Assembly (NCBI GenBank): GCA_030141605.1
Contig: JAQGDQ010000279.1
Location: 186,001 to 250,000, forward strand
DNA length: 64,000 nucleotides
DNA from: Tubiluchus corallicola
Lineage: Eukaryota; Priapulida; Priapulimorpha; Priapulimorphida; Tubiluchidae
Direction of reading: 5' to 3'
Below, in pieces: positions 9,791-54,989 of this stretch. Every line of letters starts with the position of its first letter. Positions within the stretch are counted from its first letter, which is position 1. Made by a program: the position numbers and the translations under genes. The notes below the pieces were generated by a model. That model ran no database searches. It was not told the origin of the DNA and worked only from the letters and a program-made list of their open reading frames with translations.

Positions 9791-12482
9791 GACGAGAGAG
9801 TTAAAAAAATGCTACGCGCAGCTAGGGTTAGCCCAGTTTAACTTGATCCGTCTGCAAATATATCGAATTCTGGCGAGTGAACGTACGGGGAAAGAAAAAT
9901 GCGCAAGGGTTGAAGGCCACAAAGAGAAAGTGTTGGGGATGGAGATTGGCTGCTATTTCTGCACACAGCTGGCTCAAGTACTGAAGATTTCTAAACTGAT
10001 TGTTGCTAGATTTCTAAACGCATAGCACCAGCAAAACCTTAAATTCAGACGGAATTACAATTTTACCGACTAAAGCTAACTAAAAATTTACTAAAAAAAA
10101 CTGAAATACGGCTCAGCAATTTTTCAGTCTAATCAATAACCCTCGAAGAGATGCAAGTAATCGTCCCTGTTTCAATGGGTTAGTTCTGACATCACATTAA
10201 TATGAATATGCATAGTACTCCTATTTGGCAGTCAAATAATAGCTAGGCAATTTTATTTCAAGTTACCATAGTTTTAACAAATATGCCATGCAATTACCTG
10301 AACATTTTAGGCAAACTTTTACATTTTGCAAAATTTTACCTCTGAATTTAATGAAACTACATTAGAACCAAAATTGGGAAACAATTAAATTAATATTAAA
10401 GCTAGCAGACAACCACTGATATCAAAACTAGTAAACCAGTTATAGTAACTGGTGCTTCTTTAGCGCTGGTCGGTTGGAATAAAAAATGTCTCGTGGAAAC
10501 TGCCAGAAAGGATATGGATCTGTAGATCATATCTTTCCCGGCTTCAGAAAAGCACTTTTCAGGTAAAACTAAACAATTTCTTGGTTATCATAACAGTATG
10601 TACTTGTAGATTGTTGTCACTATACGCAGAATTTTTACATTAATTCTGCTCTTTCTTTAGACAAATCGCCACAGACAAGGCCAGTGGCCATGCAAGTTAA
10701 CAAGCTACGTTAGAGATGAAGATATACAGTTTCAGGATACAAAATCCGTCTACTGTTTTGCTAGGATTAAAAGATATCTGTGGATGGTCTTGAATCTGGC
10801 GAGATCAGAGAGTTTCCGCTGAAATCAAACAGCGAAAAATTCTGATTTCCGAAATGATGTCACTACAGAGACAGTCAGAATCCTAACCACTACGTTTTTG
10901 CTGTTTCTGTAGAGTGTCACTTTACAGACGAATATTGAAGAATTTAAATGATTTAACTTCTTTAGACATCATGAGACAAGACAAAACACACGATTACAAA
11001 CTAAAGTACCTAGCTTAAAATTGTGCAGAAACTGTTGACGACTCGACGGGCGTTCAGCTTGTGATTGTAGAACGCGCTCTAAAGAACAAATGCTCTAGTC
11101 TACGATCACCGTGACTGTTAAATGACGTCACTTCCGCTCCCACATTCGCGAGAAAACATTCTGGGATTGTAGCGTAGCTTCTCTATTGCTGGTTTCAGTG
11201 AAGCAATTTCCTAGGACAGCATTCCACAGATATGAACCCGAGGAAAAAACTTTACGTAAAGAAGCTGTTCTACATGTGGGAATGTCTAAAATGAGGATTA
11301 CGAAAAGCTGTAGGAAAATGAGTTCTACAAACAAACTGATGACATTTAACAACCAGTGATAAGAAGTCCTGAGAGCTTCTTTCACAGAGGCAGAGGATGC
11401 CAAGTGAAAAGTCTGATCAGGAAGAGAACAAACGCTCCTATTCTTAGTTTAGTAGCACAGCACTGCAACACTTTTGGCGAGAAAATTTAATTAGAAGAGA
11501 AAAAAGTGCCATGTCAACAACAATAAAAACCCAACACCTACTGTAGAAAATAGTAAATTGGCGAGACAATTATAAAAGCTTTGACTTATTCGAGTTAAAG
11601 GCAACAAGCCAGTTTCGGTCCCAGGTCCAAACCGACATAAGATATCTTCCAAACTTCCCAGACGTTTCCAGTCGGGTGCTGTCAGTTAGGACACTTGTAA
11701 GTGTTGTCATTAGAAAACAGTATCATCACCATATATAAAAAACTTAGAAGTTGTAAGGACTTGCAGACCATTGGTGAAAAGCAGAGACAATGTAGGGGCA
11801 ATTACAGAACCTTGAGGAACACCAGCGTTGGTTTCATAGACAGCAGACTGTTCTTCACAAACAACTTGCAATCTGCGATTGTTGGGGTAGTATGATACAA
11901 CACAAAGTAAATATCGCCACCAATGCCGGATGATTGAAGACTGAGGAGTAGGCCTCTGGATACTTGAGGAGCCAGGGTGTGCTTAGAAATTAGCAACACA
12001 AGGTTAAGAAGTGTTACACCTAGTTAAAATGGATTAGTGATGGTAAAAAAAACTGCTTTTAGCTATGTTAAATGTCACACTGCCCTATTAATTCTGGGAG
12101 TATCATCCAGACTGAGTGAGAAGCCACAACAAAATCCATATTAGTAGTACTCCTTGCCTTAGTGTATGATGGGGGGGGGGGAGTACTGACTGGTGCTAAA
12201 CTGTATACAAGTAACTGATGCAAGTCTCATACGAAAAGGCAAGACATTAAAAATGCAGTTCTAACCTTTTAAGAAACTTTGTTAAATTTGATTAATTCGT
12301 TTTTTTTTTGTTGCGACATACTTCAACATACTGATGTTGTGAAATAAACATCACTTGCACTGCTTCTGCCAAAAATTGACAGGATTTTGATTGCTAAGTT
12401 GGTGATTACACATACTGTAAGTTACAAAAAGAAAATTTATTCAGTAGATTGTTAAATAGATATTCAGTAGATATTTAACATC
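9791..12482. other. no gene seen; poly-G tract at 12171-12181
   Basis: Mostly unique sequence. The minus-strand frame at 11128-11403 contains an SSGSYLWNAVLGN-like stretch slightly reminiscent of LINE C-terminal LWNSLP motifs, too weak to call. Confidence 0.45.
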
Positions 12483-22675: not shown

Positions 22676-23204
22676 TTTTTAATGCACACCATCGCTAGTA
22701 CACCTGTCCGTTGAATCAAATTGCTAAACTGATGAAGTCTAACATATTTTATTAATATAATTTACACAGAGTTCAAAATAAACAGTACATTACCATCTAA
22801 AGCAAGCAGCATCAGTGAAAATTGTTACAGTGACCCATAACTCATTACTGTTGATTCAAAACTTTAATTGGTAACTGAAGAAAGTTGAGCTTACACATTC
22901 TCGTCAGAAATATTTTGTTAGTAGCAAAGAACAGACATTCCATTCGTGTATTAAGTATTTTACAGTATAAACTAGTTTTAATTTAGCTTAATAAAATACA
23001 TCATTAATATCATCGTTATTGATTACAATATAGTTATATCTGGTTAATCCATAATTTGTGCAACTACACATGTTATTTACATATGCAGATATATGTAATA
23101 CGCAGCTAAGAACATATCATAATTACCTGTGCTATAAACAGTAATGCAAAGAAAAATGGTTTCTTGCTCATAGCGATAGAAAGTGTCAAAGATTGTCAAG
23201 AATG
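22676..23204. other. no gene seen
   Basis: AT-rich unique spacer. Confidence 0.5.
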
Positions 23205-23545
23205 CTCACTATTCAGCAATGAAAATAACTGAATAAAATGCTGACAGCAATATAATGACTTTGTGCATCAAATATACAGAACTTCCTGAATGCTTGCTGT
23301 TGAGAAATAAAAAAAATCTGAATAAAAAACTGACAACAATGTAATGATTTTGTGCATCAACATACAGAGCTTCCTGAATGCTTGCTGTTGAGAAATGAAA
23401 AAAGAAATCTGAATTAAATGCTGACAACAATGCACAGACTTTATGCATCAAACATACAGAATGCCGTGAATGCTTGCTACTGAGAAATGAAAAAATATGA
23501 ATTGAGTGCTGACAACATTGTAGTGACATGTGCATCTGTCTGTTA
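23205..23545. repeat. minisatellite, four units of 88-91 bp
   Basis: CTGACA(G/A)CAA recurs at 23241, 23330, 23421 and 23509. Each unit carries TGCATCAA(A)-ATACAGA, then GAATGCTTGCTGTTGAGAAAT. Unit length is not a constant multiple of three. The 130-codon minus-strand frame over it is a by-product of the repeat. Confidence 0.9.
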
Positions 23546-25550: not shown

Positions 25551-26885
25551 TTAATGAATCCGGCCCCAGGGTTGCATGACAATTATGGAGTGTACACGAA
25601 TGCCACACAGGCCTAATCTGTATCCAAGCCCTATATTTCGCTATTGTGCGAAAATATGTAACACCTAATTAACAATGATCCAGGCTAGTTGACTTCCAAA
25701 CAGGCTAGCCCCATTGTGCCAGGTGTCAAACAAATTAGCTTCATGCTGCATTAGGCAACCCGAATATTAATGCTGGAAAACTGTCAAAACACGTTAAATC
25801 GCCAAGTTATTGGTTTCCGTGATTATGATTTCAATCTACGTCTGTCATACCTGTGAGACCACGAATAAATATGAACAGAAAATGGTAGCAATAAGTGTTA
25901 ACACTCTGTTTTCCATTTTTCAAGTGCAGCTTGGGCGCCAAAAGACCAAATATTTATAACAGGCTTGTTAGTAATGACTGCGCTCCCCAATACCAATTGT
26001 AGTGCTGAAAATGAGCAGACTTAATTACTAACGTGAAAATATTCTGCGTTATTGTTTACTGCACACTTCTCTCGCCCCGGGTTCATAATGCAACAGTTCA
26101 GTAGTATTGTTAGCCGCCGCAAGAGCTACCTAGTGGTGGACGAACGCCGCCTTTTACTGACTTTTGGAAAGCATGGAGGTTGAATCCAACACTAACCAAT
26201 TAATTAATAGCAAAGGCGGCGTTTGTCCACCGCTAGGTAGCTCTTGCAGTGACTGACAATACTGCTGAGCTGTTGCATTATGTACCGGGGGTGAGAGAGG
26301 TGCGCAGTAGAGAATAACGCAGAATACTTTCGCGTTAGTAATTGAAAGTCTTCTCATTTTCAGCACTACATCCATTTTGTAATTCAGCCATTTGTAACAA
26401 GTGACCTGTTATAAATATTTGACCTTTTGGCACCAAAGTTGCACTTGAAAAATGGACAACAGAATATTAACGCTTATTGTTACCATTTTCTGCTCATATT
26501 TTTTGTGGTCTCACATCTATTCCGGACACACATTGAGCTCATAATCAGGGAAACCAATAACTTGATGAAATTAACGTGCTTTGGCAGTTTTCCGCATTTT
26601 AAGTAATGCGGAGCAGAATTATTAGTGCGAATCTACCCTTTAATGAATATTCCAGTTGCCTAACTCAGCGTGAAGCTCATTTGTTTAACACCTTCCACAA
26701 TAAGGCTAGCCTGTTCCGAAGTCCACTAGCCGCGACCTGTGACTTATTTTTGCACAATAGCGAACAATACGGCTTGCATACGGATAAAACCTGCGTGGCT
26801 TTCGTGTAAACTCCATATTTATTATCAGTTAATTGGTTAGTGGCCGGATTCAACCTGCGCGCTTTCCTGTAAAGTCAGTAAATGT
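25551..26885. mobile_element. nested fold-back element: long diverged inverted repeat
   Basis: The left arm (about 25551-26154) and right arm (about 26211-26845) are diverged reverse complements with a 56-bp centre. For example AAGCCCTATATTTCGCTATTGT pairs with an AAGCCGTATTGTTCGCTATTGT-type stretch, and the innermost GCCGCCTTT pairs with AAAGGCGGC. The centre itself (TTTACTGACTTTTGGAAAGC...GAATCC...ACTAACCAATTAA) is an inverted copy of the outer right end (26821-26885). Thus 26151-26885 alone is a TIR element of about 735 bp, abutted by an inverted relative lacking its outer terminus. No transposase coding was seen. Confidence 0.7.
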
Positions 26886-30905: not shown

Positions 30906-32013
30906 AGTTACTGTACATGTCTGTTTACCCCCTGTGTGAGGTTGTACCAAAATATTGCCTGCGTTTCTGTAAACATAAATATTTTGATCTAAAACGTGGG
31001 AACTAAAGTTACTTCGGTTTTTATTAACCTAAATTATTTAACCCAATTTTTCCAACAATCTACCTGAACTGCCTAACTCCATGTTAAATAGTCTAACTTA
31101 ACCCAGTCTGACATAAACCAAGACCTTACCCAAATCAAGCCTTCTGGGGGAAGTAAGGCCTATTTCAATGTTTGCGGAAAATGTTAGAATGATTTGGTGA
31201 TAAAACTGTTATAAGAGTCTCGTGTAATTAGTAAAATCACTTTAAAGTCGTGATAATTTCACGCTTGTCCCATTATGAATGCTAATTCTTCCAACAATGA
31301 ACGTCTCTGGTCAGCCGAAGTTAAGCAACGAGCTATCAATTTCCATCAAAACTAATAATAATTTTTTACAAAAAAAAATCGATAGCTAATTTTGTGATAT
31401 TTTTGGTTGAATATTAGGTAAGGTGTAGAAGTCCGAATTATTCTGAGCAGTGCACGCTTATGAAAATCCTGCTCAGAATAATTCGGACTTCTACACCTTA
31501 CCTAATATTCAACCAAAAATATCACAAAATTAGCTATCGATTTTTTTTTGTAAAAAATTATTATTAGTTTTGATGGAAATTGATAGCTCGTTGCTTAACT
31601 TCGGCTGACCAGAGACGTTCATTGTTGGAAGAATTAGCATTCATAATGGGACAAGCGTGAAATTATCACGACTTTAAAGTGATTTTACTAATTACACGAG
31701 ACTCTTATAACAGTTTTATCACCAAATCATTCTAACATTTTCCGCAAACATTGAAATAGGCCTTACTTCCCCCAGAAGGCTTGATTTGGGTAAGGTCTTG
31801 GTTTATGTCAGACTGGGTTAAGTTAGACTATTTAACATGGAGTTAGGCAGTTCAGGTAGATTGTTGGAAAAATTGGGTTAAATAATTTAGGTTAATAAAA
31901 ACCGAAGTAACTTTAGTTCCCACGTTTTAGATCAAAATATTTATGTTTACAGAAACGCAGGCAATATTTTGGTACAACCTCACACAGGGGGTAAACAGAC
32001 ATGTACAGTAACT
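30906..32013. repeat. 545-bp-arm palindrome with an 18-bp loop
   Basis: 30906-31450 and 31469-32013 are equal-length reverse complements with no difference seen by eye. The loop is TGCACGCTTATGAAAATC. The 20-mer CTGAGCAGTGCACGCTTATG occurs at 31443-31462 and again at 32014-32033, exactly where normal sequence resumes. So an inverted copy of the preceding 545 bp has been inserted between 20-bp direct repeats, splitting an R1 repeat. Confidence 0.9.
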
Positions 32014-35530: not shown

Positions 35531-38271
35531 ACCGAATTTCTTACATTTCCCTTTTCAGCAAATTTTAGTTTTAAAAAGTTAATAGTTGGAGGTTCGTTCC
35601 TTCATGGCGCTAATTTGTTCATTACTATTTTCAAGGGAATCCGTCACAATGAAGCCGTCATAGCAAAGTTCTGCATCATATTTTGCACTAGATGCTGTAT
35701 GAAGCAGCTTATTTTATTGCCCCGTCTCTTGTAATCAGGTCTGTATATATACGGTTAATGCTAACAGCAATCTCTGATTTTTCCTGTTCAGTTTATAGTC
35801 ATTTTATGCACTTACTCAACGACCATGCGTCCTGGCTGTAATAGAAACCTAATCCCGTGCTTCTGCTCAAACCAGAGCGAATACAACCCAGATTATTGTC
35901 TGTAGGATGTAGACAATAAGAATCACAGTAGCAGCGAGCATGTTGGTAATTGCGAGTCATCCACACGGGAGGATTTCACCTGCATTGAAGCAGAATCAGC
36001 GGGGCACGTGAACATCAAAGGGATGAACCGCTGGGAGCCCTAAACGTAATAAACAGAGCAACTAAATTGAAATAAGCAAACCAGGAAGCAGAAATGAAAA
36101 AAAATGAAGATTATAGTGCGTTTTTAGAACGCGTAATTAAACAAAATTATTTCATGCGCATGCACTAGTGTAAAGGATGCAATTTGGATCACTTTTTCAC
36201 CTTAATAGGTTTATTAGAAACTTCTTTTCTTGATTGTAAATTATATTTTTTGTACATTTCGGTGCATTGCAGAGTGCCAACATGCAGCGCTTAACAGTTT
36301 GACCCGCTGGTTCTGATTGGGCTGAAATTTGGCTCATTATCATTGAAATTCCTCAAGCAAAGACGCTAAACCAGTTGAGGCGTCTTCCGTCCCCAAAAAA
36401 AATCGCAGGACGGGGGCCGTGAGTCACGAACCCATTTCCTAACTACTCACATTGCTGCTTAACTTCGTACTCAAGAGCATGCCGTGGCCATGTTAACTAT
36501 CTCATCGCCCTAATGTACGGTTGGGCTAAGTATTTTTTTCCGAGAAAGTTATAAATTACGAGAAACGTTGTAAGATCTCAATTAACGAAAAAAAATAATG
36601 AAAAATTCTTTTAAAAAAGGTCAAGACGAGAGTAACTAAAATTGTGCAGCAAAACCTAAAAGAGCAAATAAGAGAAATAAAATGATAATAAGATCACAAA
36701 TAGATTTCGTAATTGAACTTGTTATTTTGTACCAAATATCTAAGTTTATTTGAAATCAAACAACATTTTAAACCGCTCTTATTTACAGCGCACATGCAGC
36801 GTTAATGGAAATCATAAATAAAAACTGGATTAATAGTTGACTAAAATGTCTTTAGTTTTACAAACGTTTTGCACCACGTAAAGCATTGTCAATATTGTTG
36901 GAAATTAATATTAAAAAACAAACATGCAATATTTTTTATTTCAACTTGTTGTAAGGATGTTGCATGTTTATTTTTTAGACTATTAATTTTCTTCAACTTT
37001 CATCGTGAATTATTTTTCATCAACATTGGCAATGCTGTACTTGGAGCGAAACGTACGTTAAATAAAGATAATTAATATAAATATTAAGAAAATAAATACT
37101 GTTATTTCCTGAAATTATTTGTGATTTATCATTCAACAAAAACAAGTGAGCTTTAGTGCGTTTGGTACTCTGACTTACCTGCGCGATGATAATTGCTAAA
37201 CACTGCCTTCCTGAACTTACCTTTACGACAAGAATATTCTTGTTTCACTTTCAAAGGCTGTGTAAATGGCTAACTTGATTCACGAACGGTAATCTAGTTG
37301 TTTAAATGACGAATAACACTTGTCAGAACAAAGTCAAATCTTTTTTGACTGGCTTTCCGCAGGATAATTACAGTGAAGCCACTATGTAACGCGATCAAAA
37401 GAAGAACCTGTTCTGCGCAGGCGCCCGAAGCAACGTAATCAAATAACGCAGATTTGATGCAATGGGAAAACGGTTGCCAGTTAGATTCGGTTTAATTGAT
37501 GGTAAGCTACGCACCTCACACAGTAGCCGACATCAAAATTTAAAGCATAATCCCCCGGGAATGTTTTCTCTTTTACAAAACAGGTGGCTGCAGTGTTGTG
37601 TAAAGTTAAATCATGTTGCCTTCTACGACCCATTTATTTTGCACCTATTTTCCCGGCTACCGTTCGGAAAGCAGTTATTAAACTGACAGCATATTTACAT
37701 ATGGATCGACTATACAGGGCAAGCTATGCTTGATGCACTTTACTGGATAAATTGGATAATCGTGAAAAGCGTGTTTTTCTGGAAACAGATTTGATTAACA
37801 GTAAGTTTATCTGAGATCTGAATCATAAGTGCAGTGTGATGTATTAGCATTTTTTGCATTGCAGTTTGGCTCATCGCATCTGGGAAGGCGTGATAACCGA
37901 CCAGCAATGGCACGTTGTTGTCGACTCACGGGTTCCGGTTTTTTATCATCTGAGTGAAACTTCTTGGCCAACCTCAATTGACGAGGGATGATAGGCGGCC
38001 CAAGCGGCTTGTTCTCCTTGCGTGTTTAGCTACGAAATTAAATGCTGTAACCATCTCTCCCAACGCCACACTAATGTGGTCTGGTACTAGGCCATATTTC
38101 TTCTTACACACTGCAAGTCAGTTTCCTACATTCACCAGCATTGCTGTTAATGCTGGTAACAAAACTACCATCTAGCGCACGAGGTTCTGAATTTGCGGAG
38201 CTGCAAACTGATAGCTAAAACTTTCCCGGAATAGTTATCCATTTACTAATTAGACTCCTTCCCACTTCCCA
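35531..38271. other. no gene seen; one weak tRNA-like B box
   Basis: On the minus strand at about 36438-36415, GGGTTCGTGACTCACGG resembles a SINE B-box region. Otherwise unique AT-rich DNA. Confidence 0.45.
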
Positions 38272-38406
38272 GTTTTGGTGCAGTGATTCTCATGTGTGAA
38301 GCGTTATCTTTGGTACGAAAATTCTTAGTTCCTTTCCTGCGTAAAGGAGTTGAGAATCTTCGTACCAAAGATGACTCTTTGCACATAAGAATCTTTGCAT
38401 CAAAGT
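38272..38406 (+). ncRNA. long near-perfect hairpin, candidate small-RNA precursor
   Basis: 38272-38335 folds on 38343-38406 with no bulges and a 7-base loop (CCTGCGT). Of 64 positions, 50 are Watson-Crick, 10 are G-U wobble in plus-strand RNA, and 4 mismatch (38320/38358 A-C, 38302/38376 C-U, 38291/38387 C-A, 38284/38394 U-U). On the minus strand the ten wobbles become A-C mismatches, so only plus-strand RNA folds fully. The 5' arm carries UCUUUGGU at 38307-38314, the same first eight bases as miR-9-5p, but the rest differs. Alternatives are an hpRNA/siRNA locus or a small fold-back MITE. Transcription cannot be judged from sequence. Confidence 0.5.
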
Positions 38407-38704
38407 GCGTAAACCATGTTTACAGCTGCCGTTTCTTTGAATTACATATACAAGTGAACAAGTCTTTACTGTGCACACTGCAGCCGCGCAAAGCACTTGT
38501 TTGTGGTTCGCAAGTCTTGCCACTCGGGCGAAGATTAATCTCGTAAATTAAACGAAAGATTTCCCGTCCCTCAGAATGTCTTTCAAATCCAGCTCACGAT
38601 GACTTTAAATCTTTTCTTGTTTTCTCAATAACTCCTCAGTCGTCAATGGTAACAGCGAAGATTTACGGGCAAGCAAGACTTTCTTAGTTGTCTGTGTTTG
38701 CCTG
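38407..38704. other. no gene seen
   Basis: Frames on both strands overlap the hairpin above and mirror each other because of it; none looks like a gene. Confidence 0.5.
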
Positions 38705-40268: not shown

Positions 40269-40446
<178 letters not shown>

Positions 40447-41640: not shown

Positions 41641-42070
41641 TGAATACCCCCTTCTGTCATTTGCTCACTCTTTCCTTTCTCTCTATTTCCTTCTTTTCGT
41701 TTTTTTTACTTTCGCTCCTTGATCCCTTGTTCCCTCCCACTTTCTTTTTGTTGTTTTCTTTCTCCCCCTTCTCTTTCGTCTCGTCTTCCACCATGTTTAA
41801 AAGTTGGATGTAAAGCTTCTATTAGCGACGTGTCGTGATGTCTCAAGTCTCTTTCTTTCTTTCTTTCTCTCTCTCTCTCTCTCGCTCTCTCTCTGTCTGT
41901 CTTTTTCATTCACTTATTCATACACTCATACACTCTCTTGCGCACTCACGCTTCTCACCATATGTCTTCTTTCCGCCATATTTCTCACTGTTCTCTCCCT
42001 GCATGTCTCTTCCAGCACCCCGTCACAGATTTCTCTTTCCCCCTCTCTCTTTCTTTCCCTCTCTTCTCTC

Positions 42071-42148
<78 letters not shown>

Positions 42149-49989: not shown

Positions 49990-50550
49990 AATGCCAAGCC
50001 TTCTGGGTAGTTAGGCTTAATTCAATGTTTGTGAAAAATGTTAGAAGGATTTAGTAGTAAAAGTGTAATAAGCACCTCGTATAATTAGTAAAGTTACTTT
50101 AAAGTCGCGACCATTTCACGCTCAGACACTTCCATTTTGAACGCTTATTCTTCCACCAATGAAGTCATTCATCAGCTGAAGAAATGTAGCGCACTGTCAA
50201 TTTCCACCAAAAATATCACGAGTTTTTACAAAAAATAGACCTGACCTAATTTAATGATATTTTTGCATGAACATTAGGTGAGCATGATTTATTTTAAACA
50301 GCGCACGCTTACCGAAAGCCACGATGCGCTTACGAAAAGTCACGATGTTCACCAGTTACATCATAATATTCAAGTGAATGGCGGTTACCACGTGAAATGG
50401 CAGTGAAAATTTCTATACAGCGGTAGGACAAATGAAAACTTAATGCTTTCTAGACAGTGTTTTGTAAATTTTTTTGTTATATTTTTCTAAACTTAAGTAA
50501 AAACAGTAAAATAAATCCAAAATGCTAAGTGACTTGTTCTTTCCTTTAAT
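49990..50550 (+). repeat. dispersed repeat family R1 (copy 4, most complete)
   Basis: About 560 bp, from AAGCCTTCTGGGTAGTTAGG to AAGTGACTTGTTCTTTCC. Neither terminal inverted repeats nor a poly-A tail is obvious, so the class is unknown. Near 50309-50345 a short internal duplication (GCGC(A)CGCTTAC...GCGCTTACG) lies where copy 2 suffered the palindromic insertion. Confidence 0.8.
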
Positions 50551-52840: not shown

Positions 52841-53539
<699 letters not shown>

Positions 53540-53600: not shown

Positions 53601-53626
53601 TTTTTCTCTCTGTGTGTCTCTCTCTC

Positions 53627-53660
<34 letters not shown>

Positions 53661-53735
53661 TTCTCTCTCACTCACTCTCTCTTTCTCTCTGTCACTCACT
53701 TTCTCTCTCTCAGTCTGTCTGTCTTTCTTTCCCTC
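53601..53735. repeat. (CT)n microsatellite with CACTC/TGTC interruptions
   Basis: An impure pyrimidine tract. Confidence 0.93.
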
Positions 53736-54989
53736 TAGCTCCTTGTATCTTTTCATTTTTCTGTCACCTTTTTTTATAAATTTTCATCTTTGTTTTTCTT
53801 ACATAAGTTGTATATGATCGAGCATTGGTGGTGTTGTGTTGATGTTGTGCAGTTGATAGCAACATGTTTCGAAATAAAAATTTTAATCAAACCATCCCTC
53901 TCAAAACACCTCAGCACTGTTTTAATACGTGGACCTCTGTCTCTACAGTAGAATCTATTCTTTCATCACACACCCTTGCTGACCCTACGCTAACTATAAT
54001 CTTCTGAAACTAAGCCGTCCGTTTTTAGTTTCAAGACCTTCAGACGTATTATAAACACCATCACCAAATCATTGGTCACTTCAAGAAATTCTTATACGCC
54101 TCCATTAGCATTCTTTTAATACGCAGTGACAGTTTACGTAGAGTGTAGTGCTTCTTTCCTGCCTCAAACTCGAAGTACTTTTGAGCTTTAAATCAACAAA
54201 ATAAACATTTTTTTTCATTTCTTTTGGCAAGTCGTCTTTCAACAAAACTTGGGTGTCGAACTACTGTAGAAGTGGGCTACCAGGGGTGGTTGCTAATCAG
54301 AAGACCACGCTTTTCAGGGGCATCTCATCAAACATCAGAAAGATATTATTTAAACAAAAGTAATTTACATCTAATAATTCTATAAATTAATCTTTTATTT
54401 AAAATTAAAATTGTTGTTGTTTGCGATTTTGACAATTTATTCAGCCTTCGGGGTGAATGTGACTTTTATTGATACACCCTGTAGCTTGTAACTTAATTAT
54501 GCTAATTAGAGTGTGTTTCTCGCGGTTTATCTAAACTATGTTTATTCAGGTGCGAGTGAAAACATTTCTACAAAATTGAAATGCTGCAGCTATAACCTCG
54601 AGGCTAAACAGTTCAAATTAGCCTGTTGTTCCCAGCTTAGTTTACTAGACCTTGTTCTAATCATGAATGCGGTCTCACAAAATTGCAGGATATAATTATA
54701 TGCTGTTCAAAAGTAAACACTGTTAATAGTACAGCTTTCACTTTTACTTACGTGACTTTATTTTAGGCTTTAAGCAATGCTTGAGAAATCATAAGTAAAA
54801 TTTTACCTTGCGAAGAAAATTAGAAACGCGGTTAAAATTTCCCTCTATTACACAAGCTCTCCTTGATCATCTCATTCTCATTTGTTTCAGAATAATACTA
54901 AGTACTGTTGAACATATTTTAGTTATTAAAATACTGCAAAAGTTCTGAGTTCTGGGAAATGCACAGTCTCTTTATTTTATTTACTGCTA
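53736..54989. other. no gene seen
   Basis: 54480-54720 is unique, with TTAATTATGCTAATTAG at its start. It could be regulatory but is unproven. Confidence 0.4.

Follow-up and report, generated by a model that had tools for sequence, protein, structure and literature searches.

The hairpin at 38272-38406 of the window (the whole 64,000-nucleotide stretch of DNA that was analysed) is probably a local inverted duplication, presumably made by template switching, which has decayed by ordinary substitution and has no selected function. A stretch of some 62-64 bp would have been copied as its reverse complement beside itself, most likely when replication made a short-range template switch (snap-back), and ordinary substitution afterwards would have brought the arms to a divergence of ~20%; the simplest reading would be that this decay was neutral and that the hairpin serves no selected function. 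The divergence, 14 of 64 positions, suggests that the duplication is not recent. The hairpin is a reverse-complement repeat with a short spacer at a single locus, and since a gap-free, short-loop repeat of this kind at one locus is the product of a template switch, such an origin seems the most likely. Template switching is a published source of new microRNA stems, according to the excerpt of PMC8794818. A local duplication is favoured by the one copy found, by the absence of target duplications 4 or more bases long, by a ratio of G-U to A-C mismatches of 8:2 (p=0.11) within identity-only ends and by the presence of a perfect 545-nt inverted duplication in the same window. Counting against neutral decay, 10 of the 14 arm differences are G-U and two are transversions, with no indel in 64 columns, and in simulated neutral decay with a reader-like extension at least 10 G-U together with at most 2 A-C, on either strand, arose in 0.5-1.2% of runs.

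A base-by-base recount reproduced exactly the geometry given in an earlier note on this DNA, with 64 opposed positions, 50 Watson-Crick pairs, 10 G-U pairs, four mismatches and a 7-base loop, free of gaps, in the pairing register i+j=76678 (Table 1). The G-U pairs divide into five G-U and five U-G. Two of the mismatches are A-C/C-A (38291/38387 and 38320/38358) and the remaining ones are one T-T and one C-T. Both outermost pairs, 38272/38406 and 38273/38405, are G-U and are included only when G-U counts in setting the boundary; an identity-only search ends at 38274/38404 and gives the G-U:A-C count of 8:2. The hairpin lies far above chance expectation, with an identity-only fold-back score of 32 against a maximum of 16 in 60 Markov-1 sequences, each 64 kb long. 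The plus-strand RNA of 38262-38416 folds at -75.1 kcal/mol (z -12.2, equalled by 0 of 200 shuffles) and the minus strand of the region at -66.1 kcal/mol (z -9.3). In 3194 sliding 160-nt folds over both strands the hairpin came third among distinct loci, below a palindrome at 31.4 kb and a fold-back at 26 kb. If transcribed, an RNA crossing the hairpin on the plus strand would fold, any use of such a fold being only hypothetical. It is unlikely that the hairpin is an assembly artefact, since its arms differ at 14 positions.

Table 1. Positions of the hairpin and of the neighbouring fold-back in the window.
Feature	Positions	Strand	Remark
5' arm of hairpin	38272..38335	+	identity-only boundary 38274
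7-base loop of hairpin	38336..38342	+	
3' arm of hairpin	38343..38406	+	identity-only boundary 38404
Second fold-back, with indels	36862..37060	+	1.2 kb upstream of hairpin

The search for other genomic copies that had been proposed with the first description of the hairpin was run on the 343.5-Mb assembly of 2344 contigs, in which the window is C2162:186001-250000. The hairpin matched its own locus only, whether at E<=0.001 or at E<=10, in both orientations owing to its symmetry, and the 1.3 kb around it matched nothing beyond itself and the hairpin in reverse complement. A control query, 49995-50549, which is a copy of a large dispersed family, gave 3332 candidates genome-wide (40 of the 3332 scored), showing that the method detects repeats where they are present. 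An absent match does not prove rarity in this search, and strongly diverged copies may escape it, as the fold-back at 36.9 kb did not have its own reverse complement reported. Within the window no further copy of the hairpin was found. The longest match to it among the 20 BLAST matches listed was 29 bases at 90%. Neither viral_contigs nor genome_contigs contained an exact match to a 27-base degenerate pattern of the stem. Matches to a 15-mer were present in 106 viral stretches (80 of the 106 listed), which is ascribed to chance at such a length. When two 12-mers from the stem, each spelled both as RNA and as DNA, were looked for in the literature, one paper came up, PMC8085941, by its title a lung-cancer study. 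Six-frame translation of 31-46 kb gave no Pfam family at E<=0.05 near the hairpin. In ten chosen open frames of the window a reverse-transcriptase fragment is visible at 11713-11982 on the minus strand (RVT_1, E 1.3e-5, under the Pfam cut-off), and there was no other match under E 0.02.

The window holds several other repeats. An identity-only scan, for which the chance level was the largest score of 45.5 in 24 sequences, gave four further closely spaced fold-backs above chance, at 31.3k (perfect), 26k, 36.9k and 1.0k; the comparison omitted two AT-rich fold-backs, close to 6.7k and to 55.3k. The perfect one, at 30906-32013, is a 545-nt inverted repeat with an 18-nt spacer. A copy of a dispersed repeat surrounds it: 49995-50549 matches, in unchanged order, part of its left arm followed by its right flank. 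Twenty bases at its centre are found again at its right end. The inverted repeat would be a snap-back duplication of very recent date or else an artefact of the assembly. The fold-back at 26000-26368 has arms of ~155 nt and folds at -260.8 kcal/mol. These arms stem from a dispersed repeat, two copies of which lie head to head here; the repeat has 119 candidate places (40 of the 119 scored), and among the places listed both arms are spanned only at the fold-back's own locus. In the family of 49995-50549, the last ~56 bases match repeatedly in succession at C1309 and C1156, resembling a tandem array. An 88-bp tandem repeat of 3.8 copies lies at 23200-23536, and long CT/AG microsatellites are found at 40274-40446, 42032-42145, 52861-53005 and 53605-53736, those at 52.9 and 53.6 kb being opposite in orientation.

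The earlier note took as its null that a decaying DNA fold-back gives G-U and A-C mismatches equally, and in sum this holds for ten distant inverted repeat pairs of the window, which have 105 G-U, 101 A-C and 190 transversions; these are pairs at least 1000 bases apart, assumed to be too distant for pairing to be kept. The ten are not independent, with three starting at 21.5-21.6 kb, two using the 31.5-31.8 kb arm and two using 0.7 kb. Individually they are skewed, from 26:15 to 10:23 G-U:A-C, and because of this variation the binomial test is overconfident. The 105:101 of the distant pairs gives no support to the idea that the G-U excess in the hairpin comes from strand-biased mutation of the region. 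From this excess it had been proposed that plus-strand pairing has been kept. The ratio of 10:2 (p=0.039) and the better folding of the plus strand agree with the proposal, but with identity-only ends the ratio becomes 8:2, with p=0.11. An earlier control set consisted of eight inverted repeat pairs of the window, with 105 of 378 differences of the G-U type and a G-U:A-C ratio of 105:96 (96:88 when the 1.0-kb fold-back, one of the eight, is left out). Compared with this set the hairpin's 10 of 14 gives P=0.0009 and the 8 of 12 within identity-only ends P=0.006, both post hoc and both low partly because the hairpin has a higher share of transitions (transitions:transversions 12:2 against 201:177 in the control, Fisher p=0.025). 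In the simulation of neutral decay a G-U share of at least 10/12 was reached in 2.4% of the runs with 11-13 transition mismatches. The G-U excess leans towards kept plus-strand pairing without amounting to proof, being a post hoc result on a feature picked for its look; the mismatches carry no clearly significant strand signature and are weak evidence.

The 8-mer UCUUUGGU, which we take to be the 5' end of miR-9, is present at 38307 in the 5' arm, as first reported, and also on the opposite strand at 38364 as part of a palindrome. The likeness to miR-9 that was drawn from it is nevertheless one of chance, the window holding three occurrences of TCTTTGGT (two of these being the hairpin arms) against 2.8 expected. 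The Rfam mir-9 model is not among the six matches of the hairpin at E<=10. The mir-9 of the same genome lies at C460:348982-349060 (64 bits against a cut-off of 58.6) and folds as a bulged stem at -34.5 kcal/mol (z -3.2). The genome search for mir-9, in which 64 of 67432 candidates were scored so that the count is a lower bound, did not find the hairpin locus among those scored. A relation of the hairpin to mir-9 is rejected on the chance 8-mer, the lack of a match to the model and the mir-9 above the cut-off on another contig. Across 4227 Rfam families the hairpin had no match at the gathering score, its best below the cut-off being MIR8001 (25.4 bits against 90, E 0.019). The perfect palindrome at 31.4 kb draws a stronger below-cut-off match, to MIR7723 (38.5 bits against 200, E 8.7e-6), and the weak matches of the hairpin to microRNA models therefore mean little. 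The canonical animal pri-miRNA, as given in an excerpt of PMC8865264, has a stem of ~35 bp, a terminal loop of 8-38 nt and unpaired flanks, a shape that the hairpin with its 64-bp stem and 7-base loop does not have. Reads of both miRNA and miRNA*, a 2-nt 3' overhang and 75% precision are the marks of a microRNA in the portion of PMC12594335 available.

A possible, though rather unlikely, explanation is that the hairpin belongs to a plus-strand RNA and that its stem is selected. Cleavage of the 64-bp duplex by Dicer would yield two or three siRNA-like duplexes, as in an endo-siRNA hpRNA or a young long-stem miRNA, and the second fold-back could be another hairpin of the same transcript. The plus strand is the better folded at both loci, the second fold-back having -68.4 kcal/mol (z -9.5) on the plus and -55.0 kcal/mol (z -7.0) on the minus strand. 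One copy was found of each, the second fold-back giving a single match in the genome search, and it has no sequence match to the hairpin by BLAST within the window; its Rfam matches are below the cut-off only. Of the points in favour, this second fold-back is the most interesting. Pooled, the two give a G-U:A-C ratio of 17:5 (p=0.017); when the hairpin is bounded on identity only, the ratio is 15:5 (p=0.041). The distant inverted pairs of the window show no overall strand bias (105:101). In addition, 22-nt stretches of the hairpin, sampled every second position, have at most 3 mismatches each, within the limit of 7 stated for animals in the same portion of PMC12594335, and the shape is closer to a Dicer-cut siRNA hairpin than to the canonical pri-miRNA of the PMC8865264 excerpt. 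However, neither fold-back is significant alone (8:2, p=0.11; 7:3, p=0.34), and the count for the second depends on the alignment, with 7:3 accompanied by 5 or 11 transversions and partial local alignments giving 2:1 and 2:1. The choice of the two was post hoc, and compared with the distant pairs the pooled counts give p=0.024 (17:5) or a Fisher p=0.059 (15:5). There is also no Rfam family above the cut-off, no canonical pri-miRNA shape and no second genomic match at E<=10 to serve as a target or parent gene, although short targets would escape the search. The second fold-back is a possible partner of the hairpin if a plus-strand transcript exists. That the two are single-copy hairpins of one unannotated plus-strand RNA, with pairing kept via G-U changes and feeding a Dicer pathway as a small hairpin-RNA cluster specific to its lineage and born of template switching, seems to us quite improbable.

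The close fold-backs of the window also bear on whether DNA processing could bias the mismatches with no role for RNA, if one strand folded more often in replication and mispairs within the hairpin were corrected. All four imperfect ones (38.3k, 36.9k, 26k and 1.0k) lean to G-U on the plus strand, at 8:2, 7:3, 10:5 and 13:10, the last two depending on the alignment (9:4, 10:4 or 10:5 for 26k and 9:8 or 13:10 for 1.0k). Their sum of 38:20 (p=0.025) compares with 105:101 in the distant pairs at a Fisher p=0.054. This is barely significant, post hoc and partly carried by the hairpin itself, and the 26-kb arms, which derive from a dispersed repeat, may already have been divergent when they came to adjoin; we consider strand-specific processing very improbable. 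A transposon origin has somewhat more to recommend it but is still doubtful. The hairpin would then be a relic of a fold-back or palindromic, MITE-like element, the other copies of which are lost, very diverged or unassembled. At ~135 bp with inverted arms it is MITE-sized (100-800 nt in the excerpt of PMC10004981), diverged copies may escape the genome search in the way that the reverse complement of the 36.9-kb fold-back did, and the identity-only ends are flanked by GT/GT. Such two-base repeats are present at 3 of 22 symmetric end positions, however, which is indistinguishable from chance. Within 10 bases of the hairpin ends no target duplication was found, whether of 4-10 bases with exact identity or of 8-10 bases with one mismatch, there is no three-base one at the ends themselves, and no other copy was found in the genome at E<=10 or in the window. 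Many copies with target duplications, the sign of a MITE named by the earlier note, were thus not found, the hairpin having one locus and no duplication of 4 bases or more, and a high-copy MITE is not supported.

The local inverted duplication, decayed in the ordinary way, is our default reading, and the small-RNA interpretation gets a weak lean. If the stem is in truth under selection, the hairpin would represent a young hairpin RNA at a stage intermediate between an inverted duplication and a microRNA; if unselected, it is a decayed fold-back and a warning not to infer selection when the mismatches number about a dozen. As a control, inverted repeats lying far apart in this window provide a local estimate of the G-U:A-C ratio where there is no pairing.

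Among known systems, the hairpin resembles MITEs and fold-back elements, as treated in the excerpt of a plant review (PMC10004981), in its size and inverted arms, and differs from them in being found once and without a target duplication of 4 bases or more. Like the Drosophila hpRNA/endo-siRNA loci in the part of PMC10317233 available, it has inverted-repeat arms able to pair within one transcript. Its arms are however 64 bp, against a target homology of ~200 bp for one hpRNA described there, and in the genome no homologous target or parent gene was found for it at E<=10. With animal microRNA precursors such as the mir-9 of this genome it shares a single stem-loop and 22-nt stretches with few mismatches, while its 64-bp stem is bulge-free with a 7-base loop and has a z of -12.2, compared with -3.2 for mir-9. 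In mammalian genomes, template-switch patterns have been reported where microRNA loci were created, the mismatches following a perfect phase (PMC8794818, in the excerpt). Here the duplication event itself is not visible, the arms being already ~20% diverged, but the hairpin is like those hairpins in consisting, at a single locus, of a reverse-complement repeat closed by a short loop, with mismatches after a perfect phase.
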